Shown one piece after another: positions 7,073 through 22,978 of a stretch of DNA of 27,079 nt. Numbering within the stretch: position 1 is the stretch's first letter; every line of letters starts with the position of its first letter. The stretch spans positions 1 through 27,079 of IMG/VR virus record IMGVR_UViG_3300009506_000164. One strand, written 5' to 3'. The notes beneath the pieces are model-generated. The model did not search any database, was not told where the DNA came from, and saw nothing but the letters and a program-made list of their open reading frames with translations. The stretch comes from a virus. Made by a program: the position numbers and the translations under genes.

Positions 7073-7621
7073 TTAGCCTCTAGCAACAATTCCCATTTTC
7101 TGCAGTTCATCTACTAAAGCAAGTAGATGCTTACACATGCCTGGAACGTGCATTGGGTTTGCAGGTGGGCGAGTTTGTGTCTTACGACGATATGGAGGTG
7201 GTGCCTTACCAACCAAAGCATCATCACCTGCGTTCTGGCGAGCAAACCGATAGTGAAAGTCAAGACAGTTGCAGCGAACTTGCACGTTGTTTCCCATCAA
7301 AGGAACAGGCTGTGCGATGTTGTATTCGTTGTTGTCGGAACCTGTGAAAGTAATGTTTGTTGGTGTTTCTTGGTCCTCGAAGTTTACCTCCTGAAACATT
7401 ATCTCAGGATTGTACCGATGTCCTCTGTTGTTTGCTTGTCCTTCAGCATATAAAGAATGCGAGGGAACGTAAGGTGTCAAACGAACTATAGGAATCTGGA
7501 CAGGACCAACAGCATGCTGACGAGCCTTTGTTCCTGGAAATCCACGCGTGATGTTGTTTTCCAAATCACGGATGGAAATCTCATCTATCTGCTGAATTAG
7601 GTTGAAGTTTGTCTCGTCCAT
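7073..7621 (-). CDS. SWIM-like CxC...CxH zinc-binding protein, 182 residues
   Basis: The C-terminal half shows C117-N-C119, then after 43 residues C163-K-H165 in GMCKHLLAL. This CxC-x(n)-CxH arrangement is the signature of SWIM-type zinc fingers. Between the two pairs are aromatic residues (DFHYRF) and a proline-rich basic loop (PPPYRRKTQTRPP). The first 110 residues are a less distinctive domain. I have seen similar small proteins in marine T4-like phages, but their role is unknown to me; DNA or protein binding is the usual inference for SWIM motifs. It lies downstream of a terminator that ends the HD-Pnk unit, so it needs its own promoter. A CATAAATA box ends only 5 bases before the ATG and no Shine-Dalgarno site is visible, so the message may be leaderless. 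The zinc ligands are visible; function is open. Confidence 0.7.
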   Translation of the reverse strand: MDETNFNLIQQIDEISIRDLENNITRGFPGTKARQHAVGPVQIPIVRLTPYVPSHSLYAEGQANNRGHRYNPEIMFQEVNFEDQETPTNITFTGSDNNEYNIAQPVPLMGNNVQVRCNCLDFHYRFARQNAGDDALVGKAPPPYRRKTQTRPPANPMHVPGMCKHLLALVDELQKMGIVARG

Positions 7622-7634: not shown

Positions 7635-7659
7635 AAAAGAAGAGGGACTTTCGTCCCTC
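7635..7659 (-). terminator. Intrinsic terminator after HD-Pnk
   Basis: Read on the minus strand, GAGGGAC - GAAA - GTCCCTC forms a 7-pair stem with a GNRA tetraloop, followed by TTCTTTTC. It starts 6 bases past the HD-Pnk stop codon and separates that gene from the zinc-binding gene. Confidence 0.75.
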
Positions 7660-7664
7660 AAAAA

Positions 7665-8864
7665 TTAAGCCTTCTTTAGGTTGTTGTCAAAGACCCAAAT
7701 GTCGTCAACCTCACCAAACTGCGGCAAGTGAACCGACATGTAGTGGTTGCGAACAGCGGCAAGAGGAACAGTCTTGTCGTCGCGAGACGTCTGACGATCC
7801 AACACCGTCTGCAATGCGATAGGCATCAAAACCGCAACTACGTAGTAGCCGCGATTACGAGCCTGATCAATGAAGAAACGGCGGCGCTTTCCTGACAAGT
7901 TCGTGTTATCAACAACCAGATCGTTTCCTTCCTTTACCAGCTCAATGAAGCGCTGGTTTGCCTTCTGATTAAACTCCTTGTCCTCGATCTGACGTTCATA
8001 CGCGAGGCGATACATCTCCTTTGCAGTCATCTGATCGTACGCCAACTTATGATACTCTGCATCCGAGACATACCAATCCAACCTCAACGCATCCCAAGAG
8101 AATACATTCAGTGTTTCACCAGCAGACTCAGCCTTGTCCACCAATCCGTAAATCAGTGTAGACTTGCCAGTTCCCGACGCACCAATTGGCATATAGAGGA
8201 TAGGCTGTCCCAAATTACGACCAGTGTGTCGCTCAGAGTTGACGATACCCTCGACCAAGTCGTTGAAGCCTTCGATCCACGAATGAACCTTCTGACGCTT
8301 CTCAACGTAGTCATCACTCATTCGACCGTAGGTATCTGCCAACAACATGTTGGTGAAAGCACGAGGACCATTCTCAGGAAACAGCTCAACAGCAGTCAGC
8401 GCAAGGTTGTGTAGCTTCTCAGCCTTCTTAACGCCCCAAGGCAAATGCTTCTCGATGATCCAACCAACACGGTAGATATCAAAGGCAGTGAACTCAAAGC
8501 GATCAGCCAACATTGCGAAGTTTGTGGCAGCCCAGTTTTCCCACATACGAGCGGAAATCTGCTCGTGACCGCCAAACGACTTGTAGTGACCACGCTCAGG
8601 CTTGTACTTGATGCCGTTCTTCTCACAGGCAGAAGGCTTTCCAACGTCATGGAAAGCGCAGGAAAACGCTCCAAGCAGGTCCTCATAAGACCACTCGTCC
8701 TTTGCGAAGTGGACATACTGAGACACGACCATATCCGTGTGAGTGCCGATATTTCGCTCACGGTGCCAAGGAGATTCCTCAGCAACGACAGACATATCAC
8801 GGTACAATTCCGTGGTCTGGAACTCGTTGAAATACCAGTAAATAAAACGCGCCTTGAAATCCAT
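7665..8864 (-). CDS. HD-Pnk: HD phosphohydrolase fused to 5'-OH polynucleotide kinase, 399 residues
   Basis: I start at ATG 8864 (MDFKARF) because AGAGGT lies 7 bases upstream; an in-frame upstream start at 8900 would overlap the promoter. The N-terminal half is an HD domain: H42, the H72-D73 doublet in AFHDVGK, H100 in GGHEQ, H140 and D177 in LLADTYGR are the likely metal ligands. The C-terminal half is a P-loop kinase: Walker A GASGTGKST (228-236), D258 and R261 in SWDALR matching the T4 Pnkp D35/R38 pair, DNTNL (319-323), and an arginine-bearing lid before a VP-x(4)-VR segment as in T4 Pnkp. This order matches the HD-Pnk end-healing enzymes described from Runella, which remove 2',3'-phosphates and phosphorylate 5'-OH ends. 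A likely job is repair of cleaved host tRNA or other RNA. No ligase is in this window. It has its own promoter and terminator. Confidence 0.85.
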   Translation of the reverse strand: MDFKARFIYWYFNEFQTTELYRDMSVVAEESPWHRERNIGTHTDMVVSQYVHFAKDEWSYEDLLGAFSCAFHDVGKPSACEKNGIKYKPERGHYKSFGGHEQISARMWENWAATNFAMLADRFEFTAFDIYRVGWIIEKHLPWGVKKAEKLHNLALTAVELFPENGPRAFTNMLLADTYGRMSDDYVEKRQKVHSWIEGFNDLVEGIVNSERHTGRNLGQPILYMPIGASGTGKSTLIYGLVDKAESAGETLNVFSWDALRLDWYVSDAEYHKLAYDQMTAKEMYRLAYERQIEDKEFNQKANQRFIELVKEGNDLVVDNTNLSGKRRRFFIDQARNRGYYVVAVLMPIALQTVLDRQTSRDDKTVPLAAVRNHYMSVHLPQFGEVDDIWVFDNNLKKA

Positions 8865-8890
8865 GAAAATTACCTCTGTGTTTGATTGTG

Positions 8891-8919
8891 AGTATCCCAC
8901 ACTTTGGGGTGAAAATCAA
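8891..8919 (-). promoter_or_regulatory. Sigma70-like promoter for HD-Pnk with dyad in spacer
   Basis: TTGATT (8919-8914), a 17-base spacer TTCACCCCAAAGTGTGG, then GATACT (8896-8891). The spacer begins and ends like that of the promoter at 25170-25142 (TTCACCC at the upstream end, GTGG at the downstream end), and both contain an imperfect or perfect CACCC/GGGTG dyad. It lies between the gp17 stop and the HD-Pnk start, 26 bases before the ATG. Confidence 0.6.
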
Positions 8920-8924
8920 CAGGT

Positions 8925-10472
8925 TTAGCCAAAAATCATTGGCATTGGGTCATCATCCTCAGGATTACCCGAACCACTTTCTAACCAGTTGTCTTCTTGG
9001 AAGGCATAGAGCTTGTTGTATGCTTCTTGGTCATATGAAGAGATCTCTTCCAAAATGCGCATAACAATCAGTAGTGCCGAAATGCTATCATCTGTTCCAC
9101 CTATTTGGGCAGCGTACGAACCGCTCTTACGAACGTACATTTTGAACTCTTTGAGTGTCATCACGGAATTGATATGGAGATTGCCCTTCTCGATCATTTC
9201 TTTCAGATTGACACAAGCTCGCATTTTTGATTTGGCTGTTGTTGTCATGCCGCGACGAGTTGCACCTGGCTCTGAAACAAACTCAGCTGTGTCACTTGGA
9301 TTCTCATCAGCCTCATACAGTGAAATGATACCTTCACCAACACCGTTATTCTCAACCGAGAAGTACACGATACCACCTTCTCTCTCGATGTACCTGATAA
9401 TATTTTTGAGCACATTGTACACATGTGGAGGTGACATGGAGTTCGAGCGGAATTCCCCAATCTGTTTCATATCGGGAAACGAGACGATGGCAATAACACT
9501 AAAGTCTTCTCCAGATCCAGTAGATGGATCGACCCCAATGAGATAAGTTTTGCCTTTTTCAATCTTCTCCCAGAAATGTACTTCACGTAGATCAAACATT
9601 GGTGGGAAGTTTTGATTCTGTTCAAATCTCTTTGATTCGTTTGCGATCCAAATTGAGTCAAGCAAGAGAGCGTCGGATGATAGGAAGATACATTCAAACT
9701 CCTGCTCCCACTTCCTCTGACCAAACTTACCAATCATTGCTTCTTTGAATGCCTCATCGCGTCCAGGAGGTGCATCCCACTTAACCCACTTTGACTGGAA
9801 TCCATTCACACCAATCTCGGCACCTCGCCACAGTTGTGCAAACAAATTCATATCACCATTAGGAGTGGAAGTGATAATGCAATCACCACCTGTTGACAAG
9901 GTAGGTGCAATAGCAGCCCAGAATTCTTCTGCAATGTTTGGAGCAACAAACGCAAACTCATCAAGATACAGTAGGGAGATAGCCATACCACGGCCTGAGT
10001 CTTCGGATGTTGCTGTTGACTCTATTCGCGAACCATTGTCAAAACCAACACTATGTTTGTTCCATCCGTCATCAACAACGCCTGGTTTCAACCACATTGG
10101 CAAGTGCTCATATGCGTAACGAATACGAGCTATCATTTCCTTAGCACCTTTCTCCTTGTTTGATGCTATCAGGATTGTCTTATCGAAGTTGAAAATTGCA
10201 TACCAGAGAAGATATGCTGATGCAGTTGTTGACTTACCTGTCTGTCGAGCTGAAAGAATGATGTTGTCTCTGTTCTTCCAGTACATTGTTATCAGTTCAC
10301 GCTGATAATCATACAACTCAAAATTTACGGCACCTTTCGTTGGGTGAACGATCTTTACGTATGTTTCGATGAAGTATAATGGATCACGCATACACTTCTC
10401 AAACTCCAACACCTGTTCAGGTGTGAACTCTGATTCTTCGTGCGCACGTTTTATGAACCTATTCTTTGCCAT
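8925..10472 (-). CDS. 17: Terminase large subunit, gp17-like
   Basis: Packaging motor ATPase and nuclease that cuts concatemeric DNA and pumps it into the prohead through the portal. Visible motifs in 515 residues: the adenine-binding region around DYQREL (55-60), Walker A SARQTGKS (74-81), Walker B LLYLDEF with D171 and catalytic E172, coupling motif TSTPNG (201-206), then the RNase H-like nuclease with D315 (GVDPSTGSGEDFS), E374 (VENN) and D461 or D462 (GGTDDS). It is shorter than T4 gp17 (610) but complete. AAGGG lies 5 bases before the ATG. It follows the nuclease-like gene by 36 bases in the order gp4, gp16, unknown, gp17, so the terminase pair is split by an extra gene. It ends DDDPMPMIFG; the C-terminal tail of gp17 normally contacts the portal. 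Confidence 0.97.
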   Translation of the reverse strand: MAKNRFIKRAHEESEFTPEQVLEFEKCMRDPLYFIETYVKIVHPTKGAVNFELYDYQRELITMYWKNRDNIILSARQTGKSTTASAYLLWYAIFNFDKTILIASNKEKGAKEMIARIRYAYEHLPMWLKPGVVDDGWNKHSVGFDNGSRIESTATSEDSGRGMAISLLYLDEFAFVAPNIAEEFWAAIAPTLSTGGDCIITSTPNGDMNLFAQLWRGAEIGVNGFQSKWVKWDAPPGRDEAFKEAMIGKFGQRKWEQEFECIFLSSDALLLDSIWIANESKRFEQNQNFPPMFDLREVHFWEKIEKGKTYLIGVDPSTGSGEDFSVIAIVSFPDMKQIGEFRSNSMSPPHVYNVLKNIIRYIEREGGIVYFSVENNGVGEGIISLYEADENPSDTAEFVSEPGATRRGMTTTAKSKMRACVNLKEMIEKGNLHINSVMTLKEFKMYVRKSGSYAAQIGGTDDSISALLIVMRILEEISSYDQEAYNKLYAFQEDNWLESGSGNPEDDDPMPMIFG

Positions 10473-10508: not shown

Positions 10509-11516
10509 CTACTGCTCAAGTTGGATCTTCAAGCCAATGCGTGTAGCACCTGCAGAAGGACCACCGTAAGTTGCGAGGTTTGCAGACTTAAAACGAGGTA
10601 TCTTGTCGACTGGGTATATTTTGACATCGTCCTTTGCGCGGTTGTAAACAACAAAGTAGTCATCACCACCTTTCTTCAGGTGATCAATAATAACTCGACG
10701 GACGTGATCCATCATTGCAGGGTCTGTTGACTTAAATGCTCTAGGTAGCTTACCAGACTTCAAAACACCCTCATCACCAGCAAATCCAATGGTATGATCC
10801 TCTGCGCGGTACTTGTCAACAAGTTTCTCAAAGGAGTGATACTCACCGTTTGTGACAGCTGCTGCCAGATCATCGAGAAGAGGTATACGAAGACCACGCC
10901 GAAATGATTTGTCAAAGAACGTAATTGGAGCTGTCCAGCTTGCAGTGCCCTTGATCTCAAACTGATGACGCTTACCATCCACACTGACAAGTAAGTCTGG
11001 CTTTGTGCTGCCAACAGGGGCTTTGCCAAGCACCTGAACATGATCTTGTCCGTACTCTTGGTACAGACGCTGTAGGACTTGGTTCTGTGCACTATCACCT
11101 AAAGCAACACGTCCCTGCTTTGCACCGGCTGGTTTTGTGATTGAACTAATTGGAACATAACCAATCGCATCAGCTGCGTCAGCAGAGTTAATTCCTACTT
11201 GCGTGAACACACCATTTGCATTGCGCTTTGGTGCTCCAATTTGAACACCTCTATACAGCGTGCCAGGAATAATGATATGAACTTGGGTTCCAGCTTTGAG
11301 ATGCTCATAACCAGGAACTGGCTGAACAACATCTACAGCCTTATGAAGTTTGAAACCACCACCTTCATTGTTGTGAGGTGAGTTGATGTAATCGGTCCGT
11401 TCACCCGCACCAGAGTAGCCCTTGTTTATATCACCAGGAAAATTTTTGGGGGTGAAAGGTGTCTCTAGGAGATCTTCATGCTCGGCATGAATTGGATGAA
11501 CCTCAAACAGTTTCAT
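10509..11516 (-). CDS. PD-(D/E)XK nuclease-like protein between the terminase genes, 335 residues
   Basis: Residues 173-174 (KPDLL) and 187-189 (FEIKG) give the PD-x(12)-ExK active-site pattern of PD-(D/E)XK nucleases, preceded by a helix with E154 (QRLYQEYG), another common element of the fold. The following S-W-T segment and basic FRRGLR fit a DNA-binding face. Residues 1-140 form a separate region: an N-terminus MKLFEV with an acidic segment containing LLE-T (residues 16-19), a G/P-rich stretch, and a beta segment around TQVHIIIPGTLYRG. The C-terminus ends in TRIGLKIQLEQ. Its ATG overlaps the gp16 stop by one base, so it is coupled to terminase expression. It may be a packaging-associated or restriction-type nuclease, or an internal protein shipped with the DNA. 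The nuclease call rests on motif spacing only. Confidence 0.65.
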   Translation of the reverse strand: MKLFEVHPIHAEHEDLLETPFTPKNFPGDINKGYSGAGERTDYINSPHNNEGGGFKLHKAVDVVQPVPGYEHLKAGTQVHIIIPGTLYRGVQIGAPKRNANGVFTQVGINSADAADAIGYVPISSITKPAGAKQGRVALGDSAQNQVLQRLYQEYGQDHVQVLGKAPVGSTKPDLLVSVDGKRHQFEIKGTASWTAPITFFDKSFRRGLRIPLLDDLAAAVTNGEYHSFEKLVDKYRAEDHTIGFAGDEGVLKSGKLPRAFKSTDPAMMDHVRRVIIDHLKKGGDDYFVVYNRAKDDVKIYPVDKIPRFKSANLATYGGPSAGATRIGLKIQLEQ

Positions 11517-19426: not shown

Positions 19427-19661
19427 TGTCTATTCCTCTTTCTAAATCACGAAGTGCTTTTGACTTCTTCTTTTTCTTTTCCTTTCGCTCACACCAAGTC
19501 CTACCTTTGCAGAACTTGTTTGGCAGTGGTGCATTTACATCACCATAGTGCTGTATGGAGGCTGCTGGAGTTGGTCGAGAAGCATCAGGTCCAACCACAG
19601 GAACACCTCCACCTGCAGCAATACCACCAACGTCTTCTTTTATTATCTCACTTAATTTCAT
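19404..19661 (-). CDS. Unrecognised 85-residue protein coupled to gp13 and cupin
   Basis: The ATG at 19661 shares a base with the gp13 stop (TAATG) and the 3' end overlaps the cupin by 23 bases, so coupling strongly supports that it is a real gene. The N-terminus MKLSEIIKEDVGGIAAGG has a short amphipathic segment followed by I-K-E-D, which fits the (L/I)-x-E cleavage site of T4 prohead protease. The middle is rich in P, A, G and V. Two cysteines (CKGRTWCERK) precede a strongly basic stretch of lysines (KEKKKKKSKALRDLE). Its size, basic charge and N-terminus are reminiscent of small internal or DNA-associated head proteins. I do not recognise a family. Confidence 0.7.
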   Translation of the reverse strand: MKLSEIIKEDVGGIAAGGGVPVVGPDASRPTPAASIQHYGDVNAPLPNKFCKGRTWCERKEKKKKKSKALRDLERGIDNASPRPF

Positions 19662-22600
19662 TAGCCTATGATGAACTCACAGTTCATTCCATATTCTTCA
19701 ACATTATTGACAACATAGTTATCAAGTTCAGCCTGTAGCTTCTCAAATTCATCATTTGCTTCCTGAGCAAGATCAGATGCATTCAAAGATACACCACCAC
19801 CTGCACCTGGTAGGGAAGCAAACTTACCACGAATTTGTGATAGAATTCTCTTCGAGTGTGCCAAGGCATATCTCTCGATCCAACGACCCGTGAACCTATC
19901 TGTCAAGAGATCCTGTTCTGTTCGTTCCACTGCAACATCCATAAGGATTGTTTCTGGAGTTGAGAAATACTGGTGTAGCGTTAGAGACCTAGCAGACTCA
20001 TTCCAGTTAAATGTGATGCGAGATGCAAACAAGTGTTCCAATGTTTCTATGTACTGGCTAACAATATGGAAACTCAATAGATCAAATGTTCCCATGTTGT
20101 ATAGGTGCTGCAAAACAACCTGTCCAAACACACCTGAACCATGTGCACTTGTCATGAAGGCTGAAGTAATGCGGAAGCAACCCATGACCTGAACAATCTT
20201 GTCATGTCCATACTGACCATCTGCCAAAGAATAACCATTGCCTTCACTATCTGTCTCAGCGGTTGGTTTTGTTAGCTTGTAAATCTGCTTGCCTGCATTC
20301 ACATATAGTTTCATGAAACCACGACGGTATGCAGCCGAGCTGTTTCGACGCAGTTCCTGAATAGCAATACGAATTGCTTCATCGAGCTGGCCTTTGGTTA
20401 GCTCAACCTGAACAACTGGATGTCCAAGCTGCTTACGAATATCGTCTGCTAATCGACGGTGCTCATCTTCTGTCCCATCAGTACCAATTCCTTCCTGTTC
20501 ATATGTTGGCAGGCAAGATAGACCATCTGTACCAACAAACATGCAGCTGAATGTTGGTTGCTGGTTAAGGCTAAAGAAGATTTCATCATCGGCAATGCTA
20601 CGACCCACATCAACATTGGAACCACTACCCGTGGAGGTTGCCGTAAAGACGATTGTGCCATCTGTTGACACAGTTGCAGTTGCAAGTGGAGGGGATTCTA
20701 CCCAAGTTGTGCCATTCCACATCATCAATGTACTTGTTGTGGTATCATACCACAAGTCACCAGTATCTGGTTTTGGTGAAACGGTGCTGAAGATAACACT
20801 CATCCACGCTGTACCATTCCACATCCACAAAGCGTTGTTTGTTGTGTCATACCAGAATGTGCCAGATGGAATTGTTGTGCTTGATGGGTCAACATCAGAG
20901 TCAACAGGATCAAATTCTACCCAAGCTACTCCACTCCACTCATACCACTTGGAGGTTGAGGTATCATACCAGATATCACTAACTGCTGGTGCTGTTGGAT
21001 CAGTTGGGGAGGAGATGAATGTGACTTCTATCCACTGTGAACCATCCCAGGACGAAAGAGTAGTGCCATCGTACCAAACAACACCTATAGCTAGTGAGAC
21101 TGGTGCTGTTGGATCAGTTGTACTTTGGATAAAGTGTTCTACCTGAACCCATGCAGATGCAACCGAGTCCCAGATGTATAAGATGTCAGTGTCAGAGTTC
21201 CACCACAGGTCACCAGAAGCAACAATAGATGGATCTGTATCATATACGATTGCACACTGAGAAACCCAAGCTGTGTTTCCAGCATTACGAATGAATAGTT
21301 CTGCATCACTGTTTATCCAGTACTGGTTTGCAACTGGAGAAGTTGGCTCTGTACCAATAGTTAAAGGATAACTAACAACAGTAGCTTCTGTTGTGCTATA
21401 GTTGGTTAGTGCTGTGAAGAGAGTTCCACCTGCTGTGATAACAGGCTCAGATTCATCTGCACTTACCAAGCGAATTCGTGTAGAAGGCTGGGTGCCAACA
21501 AAACTAATTGTTGCAAGACCTGCAAGCTGTGAGTTAATTGAGGCAAACACCTTATCAAAGCGACCAGATGTTGCATCGCAAACATTAACAACGATGTCAA
21601 GCACATTGCCTGCAATCGTAATCTGTTCTGTGTACTCACCATCAGCCAAAGCAAGGTCACTGTTCGAGTGTCCTGCTGATAGTGTGAAATCAATGTAGCT
21701 ACGACCAACAGGATTCCAAATATCAGCAACAGGTGTGTCATAAATCCAAAGAAGGTTGTCACCATCATCAAACCAGTATGTACCCGTTGGCAGGGCAGTA
21801 GGATCATCACTCCAATAAAGAGCATCTGTCTCATCCCAGACACAGGTTACTTCATTCCAGTGACGAAGCAGTAGATCATCAGGATTGTACCAATAGTAAC
21901 CAGCATCTGCAGTTACACCATCTGAAGGATCCGTTGTCTGGTCATAAAGAGTTAGTTGATCCCAGATATTACCATTCCACTGGAATGCAGCTGAAGGAGA
22001 ACCAGAACGGTACCAATAGTCAGAGGAAGTTAGTCCTGATTCTAATGTTGGGTCTTTTGCATAGCGAACGATGCTGGCACTTGAAACTAGAACCCAAGCA
22101 AGTCCATCCCACTGGTATAGTTCGCTCGTGGAAGTCTTGTACCAATAATCACCCAGTGCAAGTGCTGTTGGATCTGTTGGCTCCTGGATAGCATCAACTT
22201 CCGTAAACGCATAACCATCCCACTGGTATAGAATTTCAGTGGTGGTATTGTAATAGTAGGCATTTGTATTAGGTGGAACTGGACTCTGTGATGCTGAAAC
22301 AAGCAAGCCTATCTGTACGTTGATGGCATCAACCAAATCACCATACGTTTGAGCATTTGATCCATTGATTGTGATGGTATATTGTACATCATCAATCTGC
22401 ATGTCCATTGCATAGGTTGCACCAAGTGATAAACCAGTACCATCTGTTGCCGTGATTGCATTTGGAAAACTGATTGTAACGTAGCCACTTGAATCATCTG
22501 TCTTTGTCAAGCATGGATCGAGCGAATACGCATGTGAGCCCTGTGGACAGTAACGGTACTGACAATCGACAGCATATCCTGTGACATAGTAAGGAGTGTT

Positions 22601-22978
22601 CTCATCTAAACCTGTGATATCAACATAGGTTGTGAGGTCTGTACCTGTACCCTTTTTAACGCACTCATAAAAAGCACCGACGACAAGAGCCGTACCGATA
22701 GTATCACCGGCATGCAAATCGCGATCACCTGTAGGATCACCAGTGTATATTGTTTCATTGGTTGGCTTGACAGTATCCTTGTCCGCACCGACATTATCGA
22801 GTGTGATTACGATACCACCGTACGCCTGAGTCTCTGCTGTACAACCATCGGGAGGAGTTGGAATATTCCACGAGATGCGTGCAGTTGAAGCGCTCGTACG
22901 ATCCAATTGTACTGTGATCTCAGCAGCTTCTTTACAAAGCTTGCCAGGTGCGTCAGCGTAAGCGTCAAAGGTTCCCAT
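19661..22978 (-). CDS. 13: Neck protein gp13 fused to a very long repeat-rich N-terminal extension, 1105 residues
   Basis: T4 gp13 has 309 residues; only residues about 838-1105 correspond (RRLADDIRKQLGHPVVQVEL, DEAIRIAIQELRRN, RWIERYALAHSKRILSQIRGK, EANDEFEKLQAELDNYV and the ending MNCEFIIG, parallel to T4 PPFGILVG). Residues 18-140 resemble a fibronectin-III type domain (VQLDRTSASTARISWNIP ... LDENTPYYVTGYAV). Then come about eleven copies of a 30-45 residue unit with consensus (G)D-x-W-Y-x-T-x-T-x-x-L-Y-x-W-x-G-x-x-W-V, at residues 240-425 and 550-760, split by a beta domain at 430-530 that resembles the gp18 insert. The extension likely decorates the neck as whiskers or an adhesin. AGGAG 8 bases before the ATG, CATAAATA 27 bases upstream. 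Confidence 0.9.
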   Translation of the reverse strand: MGTFDAYADAPGKLCKEAAEITVQLDRTSASTARISWNIPTPPDGCTAETQAYGGIVITLDNVGADKDTVKPTNETIYTGDPTGDRDLHAGDTIGTALVVGAFYECVKKGTGTDLTTYVDITGLDENTPYYVTGYAVDCQYRYCPQGSHAYSLDPCLTKTDDSSGYVTISFPNAITATDGTGLSLGATYAMDMQIDDVQYTITINGSNAQTYGDLVDAINVQIGLLVSASQSPVPPNTNAYYYNTTTEILYQWDGYAFTEVDAIQEPTDPTALALGDYWYKTSTSELYQWDGLAWVLVSSASIVRYAKDPTLESGLTSSDYWYRSGSPSAAFQWNGNIWDQLTLYDQTTDPSDGVTADAGYYWYNPDDLLLRHWNEVTCVWDETDALYWSDDPTALPTGTYWFDDGDNLLWIYDTPVADIWNPVGRSYIDFTLSAGHSNSDLALADGEYTEQITIAGNVLDIVVNVCDATSGRFDKVFASINSQLAGLATISFVGTQPSTRIRLVSADESEPVITAGGTLFTALTNYSTTEATVVSYPLTIGTEPTSPVANQYWINSDAELFIRNAGNTAWVSQCAIVYDTDPSIVASGDLWWNSDTDILYIWDSVASAWVQVEHFIQSTTDPTAPVSLAIGVVWYDGTTLSSWDGSQWIEVTFISSPTDPTAPAVSDIWYDTSTSKWYEWSGVAWVEFDPVDSDVDPSSTTIPSGTFWYDTTNNALWMWNGTAWMSVIFSTVSPKPDTGDLWYDTTTSTLMMWNGTTWVESPPLATATVSTDGTIVFTATSTGSGSNVDVGRSIADDEIFFSLNQQPTFSCMFVGTDGLSCLPTYEQEGIGTDGTEDEHRRLADDIRKQLGHPVVQVELTKGQLDEAIRIAIQELRRNSSAAYRRGFMKLYVNAGKQIYKLTKPTAETDSEGNGYSLADGQYGHDKIVQVMGCFRITSAFMTSAHGSGVFGQVVLQHLYNMGTFDLLSFHIVSQYIETLEHLFASRITFNWNESARSLTLHQYFSTPETILMDVAVERTEQDLLTDRFTGRWIERYALAHSKRILSQIRGKFASLPGAGGGVSLNASDLAQEANDEFEKLQAELDNYVVNNVEEYGMNCEFIIG
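20986..21120. repeat. 21-base direct repeat inside the gp13 extension
   Basis: The 21 bases at 20986-21006 recur exactly at 21100-21120, start to start 114 bases (38 codons). They encode the same part of two adjacent W/Y repeats of the gp13 extension. An exact DNA match of this length within diverged protein repeats suggests recent duplication or gene conversion of repeat units. Confidence 0.7.

Follow-up and report, generated by a model that had tools for sequence, protein, structure and literature searches.

Why should a gene cluster for phage heads and tails house an enzyme of the kind that heals broken nucleic acid ends, and what would it heal there? The question is raised by a 27,079-base virus record, a 27-kb fragment (the window, meaning the whole stretch of DNA analysed), in which a 399-aa gene at 7665..8864 on the minus strand combines an N-terminal HD phosphohydrolase with a C-terminal polynucleotide 5'-kinase (HD-Pnk), an identification based on the open reading frame, Pfam, PHROGs, an alignment and a structural model. 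The gene starts at the ATG at 8864, with a ribosome-binding site read from the sequence (AGAGG, 8873..8877, minus strand) 8 nt 5' of it; an alternative start at the GTG at 8900 is unlikely because that codon lies inside the spacer of the promoter described below. The upstream neighbour is terL, encoding the terminase large subunit (8925..10472, minus strand), which is recognised by Pfam Terminase_6N/6C and is linked to HD-Pnk in relatives. The downstream neighbour (7073..7621, minus strand) is a SWIM-type zinc-finger gene, named from a PF04434 match of 14.5 bits, below the Pfam cut-off, together with the annotation of phage relatives and synteny. An earlier note on this DNA had located the gene in the packaging region, which is borne out by the adjoining terL and by the head and tail genes around both neighbours.

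The same note had read the protein as a fusion of an HD domain with a P-loop kinase, and this is confirmed by a Pfam AAA_33 match (42.6 bits), by invariant motifs, by the predicted structure and by homology to gp110 of Rhodothermus phage RM378. PHROG 6931, to which no function name is attached, covers residues 16-391 (130 bits). In the window protein the HD domain scores too low for Pfam to detect, and a PDB sequence search with this single protein returned nothing useful; the HD domain of homologues reaches PF01966 (37.2 and 33.3 bits for proteins of Campylobacter phages). In the window protein the domain spans residues 1-209 (8238..8864, minus strand), with the ligands H42, H72-D73, H100, H140 and D177, and has a structure match to 3wfo. 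The kinase domain, supported by alignment, profile and structure, spans residues 218-398 (7671..8213, minus strand) and carries the Walker A sequence GASGTGKST at 228-236, D258, D319 within a VDNTN motif, and R361. An alignment of 57 members of at least 330 aa was examined for missing HD or Walker residues, the observation named beforehand as counting against the fusion enzyme, and all were kept: H42, H72, D73, H100, H140 and D177, as well as the kinase residues G233, K234, D258, D319, R328 and R361, are invariant in 57/57. This alignment excludes L001, L012, L014, L074, L075 and shorter members, and retains the near-identical populations L049/50/51/53, L058/59/60 and L004/L070. For a profile built on 12 family members, the E-value is 1.4e-14 with T4 Pnk (1ly1) and 5.5e-14 with the kinase of C. 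thermocellum Pnkp (4gp7); in the profile alignment to 1ly1, D258 falls on T4 D35 and R361 on T4 R126, and D319 stands one column before T4 D85. The kinase domain forms the C-terminal end of the modelled protein with nothing beyond it, and the HAD phosphatase domain, a feature of T4-type Pnkp, gave no Pfam match at E up to 1.

The AlphaFold2 model, built from 37 aligned sequences, has a mean pLDDT of 94.5 and a pTM of 0.93. Residues 1-209 superpose on the tRNA-processing enzyme 3wfo with Z 17.0 over 170 residues at 3.0 Å, and 3wfo and its sister entries, which we take to be tRNA nucleotidyltransferase, reach Z 16.3-17.0, with about 170 residues superposed at about 3 Å, whether the full model or the HD part alone is used. 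The next HD-domain entries among the matches listed (SAMHD1, exopolyphosphatase) score Z 12.4 or less. The HD part of homologues also matches tRNA nucleotidyltransferase models of NCBIfam and PHROG, and some homologues are annotated as tRNA nucleotidyltransferase or poly(A) polymerase. However, the HD part is all that is held in common with those enzymes, and the annotation was rejected: a nucleotidyltransferase head of the Pol-beta type gave no Pfam match in five homologues at E up to 1. Residues 215-398 match the kinase of CthPnkp (Z 15.9), seryl-tRNA(Sec) kinase (15.3) and T4 Pnk (14.4). A comparison with predicted structures of viral proteins gave as its best full-length matches a 374-residue protein, the length of which fits gp80 of Salicola phage SCTP-2, and a Campylobacter phage 'polyA polymerase'.

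The domain order distinguishes the protein from T4 Pnkp. The kinase domain and the proposed job in tRNA repair are shared with phage T4, in which Pnkp (PseT) is paired with Rnl1, but in T4 Pnkp the kinase comes first and is followed by a HAD phosphatase, whereas the window protein has the HD domain first and the kinase second. The layout of the window protein is that of the bacterial HD-Pnk of Runella slithyformis (Munir and Shuman), which reportedly has an N-terminal HD phosphoesterase and a C-terminal 5'-kinase, and enzymes of this kind are said to act on both DNA and RNA. Full-length HD-kinase homologues of about 23-26% are found in Campylobacter phages CPt10 and F348 and in Salicola phage SCTP-2, each with an Rnl1 in its genome; unlike in the window, they lie in other gene neighbourhoods, away from terL. 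A scan of genome contigs for bacterial HD-Pnk gave two partial HD matches (L103, L104), and the F348 protein, used as query against plasmids, found a single match, which is kinase-only.

HD-Pnk is an enzyme kind already known in phages, as is established by the homology to RM378 gp110 together with what PMC1997131 says of RM378 PNKP. Gp110 is a full-length homologue with the same domain order and with the HD and kinase motifs kept (25% identity over 377 columns; BLASTP 7e-11); it scores 425 bits to PHROG 6931 and is the one protein in the RM378 genome that the family profile matches (E 3.6e-47), although it is annotated 'probable poly A polymerase'. Because it is the sole HD-Pnk of that genome, gp110 is presumably the kinase/3'-phosphatase of Blondal et al. 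2005. RM378 PNKP is, according to PMC1997131, the one HD-type enzyme with demonstrated 3'-phosphatase activity. RM378 differs from the window in that its HD-Pnk (98060-99145) lies outside the terL slot, terL being at 53361-54887; the phage also encodes an RNA ligase, Rnl1 gp103. PMC1997131 also describes Deinococcus radiodurans DRB0098, in which an HD domain likewise precedes a kinase and R371 is the counterpart of T4 R126; the likeness is one of description, and unlike the phage gene this bacterial one sits in an operon with ligase-like and macro-like proteins. DRB0098 labelled a DNA 25-mer, and the R371K change strongly reduced its kinase activity. However, the substitutions H81A and D82E left 3'-phosphatase activity undiminished in an assay limited by background, and for this reason the role of the HD domain in DRB0098 is unproven (PMC1997131).

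How the gene is transcribed bears directly on when the enzyme might act. The earlier note had proposed a sigma70-like promoter and a terminator belonging to the gene itself, and both hold when relatives are compared. The site TTGATT-17-GATACT (8891..8919, minus strand), which begins at the very position, 8919, where the interval marked in that note ends, matches the consensus at 8/12 positions and is weak alone (P about 0.09 for the 60-nt gap): a best score of at least 8 in a 127-nt stretch was reached in 1511/2000 Markov shuffles (Markov-1 resamplings), and a promoter scan at 9/12 found none at this position in the window. It is rescued by its relatives, since homologous sites at the same place score 10/12 in L002 and 9/12 in L015, and there is a family-wide excess of sites 3' of terL. 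Where HD-Pnk directly adjoins terL, the window included, the 120 nt that follow the terL stop contain a site of at least 10/12 in 18/24 loci against 1.6 expected, and one of at least 11/12 in 11/24 against 0.2 expected. Where a gene intervenes between terL and HD-Pnk, the same stretch has a site of at least 10/12 in 9/25 (1.5 expected). Taken over all upstream regions of HD-Pnk, at least 9/12 is reached in 31/50 (10.9 expected). Ten other genes of the cluster are near expectation, the largest excesses being those of terS (12/45 against 9.1) and SWIM (9/40 against 5.8).

The T4-late word TATAAATA shows a different distribution: it is enriched before the tail tube gene (8/28, 0.7 expected), SWIM (8/40, 0.55), g5293 (8/24, 0.9) and g6467 (4/34, 0.45), but not before HD-Pnk (1/50 against 1.1 expected). 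Exact T4-type late promoter words of this form occur in the window at 14200-14193, 16492-16485 and 153-146, all on the minus strand, and 27 and 55 nt separate the first two from the tail tube and tail sheath genes that they precede. On the 3' side, an intrinsic terminator (GAGGGAC-GAAA-GTCCCTC with a T-rich tail, 7642..7659, minus strand) was found by a scan that on its own returned one site against 3.6 expected for the whole scan; the same hairpin, with compensatory changes in the pairs, is conserved 3' of HD-Pnk in L002 and L015. A strict terminator follows HD-Pnk in 7/45 cases against 0.1 expected and is absent from 38/45; one follows the tail tube gene in 13/32. By these promoter and terminator counts, the promoter is common to the family at large, and the terminator belongs to the window's own sub-clade and a few others.

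The place of the gene beside terL is not peculiar to the window. A scan of viral contigs with HD-domain motif patterns, blind to synteny, gave 62 loci, and terL is present in 54 of them; the other eight are cut near the gene (L017, L052), lie in other neighbourhoods (L066, L070-L072) or are kinase-only (L074, L075). With duplicates removed, HD-Pnk shares the strand of terL in 49/49 loci and lies at most 150 nt from it in 21 of the 49, and SWIM follows within 150 nt in 35/43. The distances of HD-Pnk and of terL are correlated (Mantel r 0.81, 0/5000 permutations, 38 pairs). The synteny, promoter and Mantel counts exclude the duplicates L001, L014, L050, L051, L053, L059, L060, L094 and L095 and still include the close pairs L026/L028 and L038/L039. 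A reverse search started from terL and kept the best 80 of 210 loci, of which 53 had at least 2500 nt downstream; here the slot holds the fusion in 35, HD and kinase in separate frames in one, a kinase alone in seven and nothing in ten, and seven of the ten empty slots still have SWIM near terL. XacN1 and RAS14, the nearest named phages by terL (320-385 kb), have no HD-Pnk between terL and SWIM and carry a stand-alone kinase elsewhere. The earlier note had called the gene a self-contained island. Self-containment stands, in that the gene has its own promoter and terminator; recent acquisition is ruled out by co-inheritance with terL, though empty sites exist, and HD-Pnk is a long-established occupant of the terL-SWIM slot. 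No published description of its link to terL was found in a literature search that was thin on subscription journals.

Variants of the slot were seen in several relatives. The HD and kinase halves lie in separate reading frames, about 400 nt apart, at L165:7563-9276 and L062:6595-8327, and a kinase-only gene occupies the slot after terL in L142, L144, L145, L150, L153, L157, L158, L166 and L174; no Rfam RNA or intron reached the gathering score in L062, L165, L157, L166, L144 or the window. In the closest relative, HD-Pnk and SWIM are separated by a 1097-aa gene with a PcfJ-like domain (L002:11191-14484) in the opposite orientation, with a homologue at the same place in L015 and none in the window. 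L022 has a 425-aa gene without a Pfam match between terL and HD-Pnk (L022:6727-8004), and several relatives have a reading-frame end like that of this gene just 5' of HD-Pnk. In L018, L065, L045, L058 and others terL is spread over two or three reading frames, which suggests inteins, introns or homing genes.

An end-healing enzyme would require a partner to seal the healed ends. No Rnl1, Rnl2 or RtcB was found in the 27-kb window, nor in G001 (155 kb), the closest relative, which is probably cut rather than complete, since its tRNAs lie near one end. The search for Rnl1 and Rnl2 in relatives covered 32 records chosen as long, with 30 of the 62 loci left out. All six terL-linked records of at least 180 kb (G007, G018, G026, G039, G040 and G041, the last with a kinase-only slot) have Rnl1 and/or Rnl2 over the cut-off, and a ligase is present in 3/9 of those of 90-180 kb (G008, G011, G019), a trend with record size that is as expected for fragments of large genomes, given the size of the nearest named relatives. 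Among phages with an unlinked HD-Pnk, RM378, SCTP-2, CPt10 and F348 have Rnl1, which in F348 is a putative gene shortly downstream of HD-Pnk with two small genes between, and G027 (239 kb) has no Rnl1, Rnl2 or RtcB match. RtcB exceeded the cut-off in 0/5 and 0/35 records, two contigs or phages being common to both sets. At least four of the 11 ligase matches over the cut-off in the terL-linked records among these 32 lie within 1 kb of a tRNA gene. However, the pairing with a ligase is not specific to HD-Pnk, because ligases are also present in G033, G034, XacN1 and RAS14, in which the terL slot has no HD-Pnk; each of these has a separate kinase-only frame elsewhere (that of G034 with an internal stop), and kinase and ligase thus co-occur more generally than HD-Pnk and ligase.

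Taken with the intact active sites, these associations make it probable that HD-Pnk is a bifunctional enzyme preparing ends for sealing of the Rnl1/Rnl2 type. The HD domain would clear the broken end of an RNA strand of its 2',3'-cyclic or 3' phosphate, the kinase domain would phosphorylate the 5'-OH end, and a ligase of the Rnl1 or Rnl2 type, predicted to be encoded elsewhere in the large phage genome, would seal the break; the likeliest substrate would be tRNA cut by a host anticodon nuclease. Since the promoter and terminator make HD-Pnk a one-gene unit within the packaging cluster, its transcription by host polymerase could precede that of the late genes, at a stage when damage to tRNA would have consequences.

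The healing of DNA rather than RNA ends is the alternative that survives best, although we think it unlikely. Here nicks or breaks in phage DNA would have their 5'-phosphate and 3'-OH ends restored by the enzyme, perhaps ahead of packaging, so that a DNA ligase could close them. Such a role would account for a place beside terL, on the same strand and inherited with it. The labelling of DNA by DRB0098 (PMC1997131) is in keeping with this, as is the activity on both DNA and RNA mentioned above for enzymes of the Runella kind. However, the host-type promoter separates HD-Pnk from late expression, and packaging does not need it in the relatives whose slot is empty (10/53, from the best 80 of 210 loci). 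The Campylobacter and Salicola phages keep the gene away from terL, and the HD domain is most like a tRNA enzyme among the structure matches listed. Terminase cuts, moreover, leave 5'-phosphate and 3'-OH, ends that need no healing. A broader reading, which we hold to be quite unlikely, would join both substrates: the terL-SWIM slot would be a dedicated end-healing site in a clade of large T4-like phages, with a kinase core, a host-type promoter and an HD phosphatase that can be exchanged and is fused, split off or missing, and might serve early tRNA repair and, by late read-through, the mending of DNA ends at the site of packaging. If true, this would tie a nucleic-acid repair enzyme to the terminase.

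It is very unlikely that the HD domain acts instead on a nucleotide signal or nucleic acid in the manner of Cas3'' or a phosphodiesterase, with the kinase as regulator, in an anti-defence enzyme that repairs no strand. In favour of such a role, HD phosphodiesterases that act against signalling defences are described for jumbo phages (PMC7824862), and PADLOC returns Cas3/Cas10 HD matches; the best cas3_HD score of five proteins (22.1 bits, in L002) is below the curated cut-off of 43.45, and a Cas3'' HD nuclease was rejected as a candidate on that ground. Cas3 is absent among the 50 structure matches listed for the HD domain, which excludes nothing. Against this role, the kinase is Pnkp-like, with the arginine aligned to T4 R126 invariant, the HD structure is nearest a tRNA enzyme and clearly above SAMHD1-type folds among the matches listed, the fusion matches the RM378 protein, and large relatives carry ligases. 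That the protein joins an HD domain to a toxin-like zeta/PezT P-loop kinase is extremely improbable: Zeta_toxin scores 19.2 bits in Pfam (cut-off 22.3) and PezT matches weakly (E 0.0019), but AAA_33, T4 Pnk and CthPnkp score far better and no antitoxin-like partner gene was seen adjoining HD-Pnk.

The gene extends an enzyme kind characterised in RM378 to a large clade of uncultured T4-like phages, whose proteins of this family have no functional name in PHROGs and whose late gene cluster houses the gene under a separate host-type promoter. The kinase-only and split forms in the slot offer natural material on when the HD phosphatase is needed, and whether the gene is expressed early, depends on an RNA ligase and rescues the phage from defences that cut RNA can be tested directly. 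Two other genes of the window may be recorded here. Between terS and terL lies a 335-aa gene (10509-11516, minus strand) with no Pfam or PHROG match, which by eye resembles a nuclease-type fold and has homologues of 31-38% at the same place in L016, L044-L047 and L068. The gene at 19661-22978 (minus strand) encodes a 1105-aa, probably structural protein with many W-rich WYxTxTxxLYxWDG repeats.
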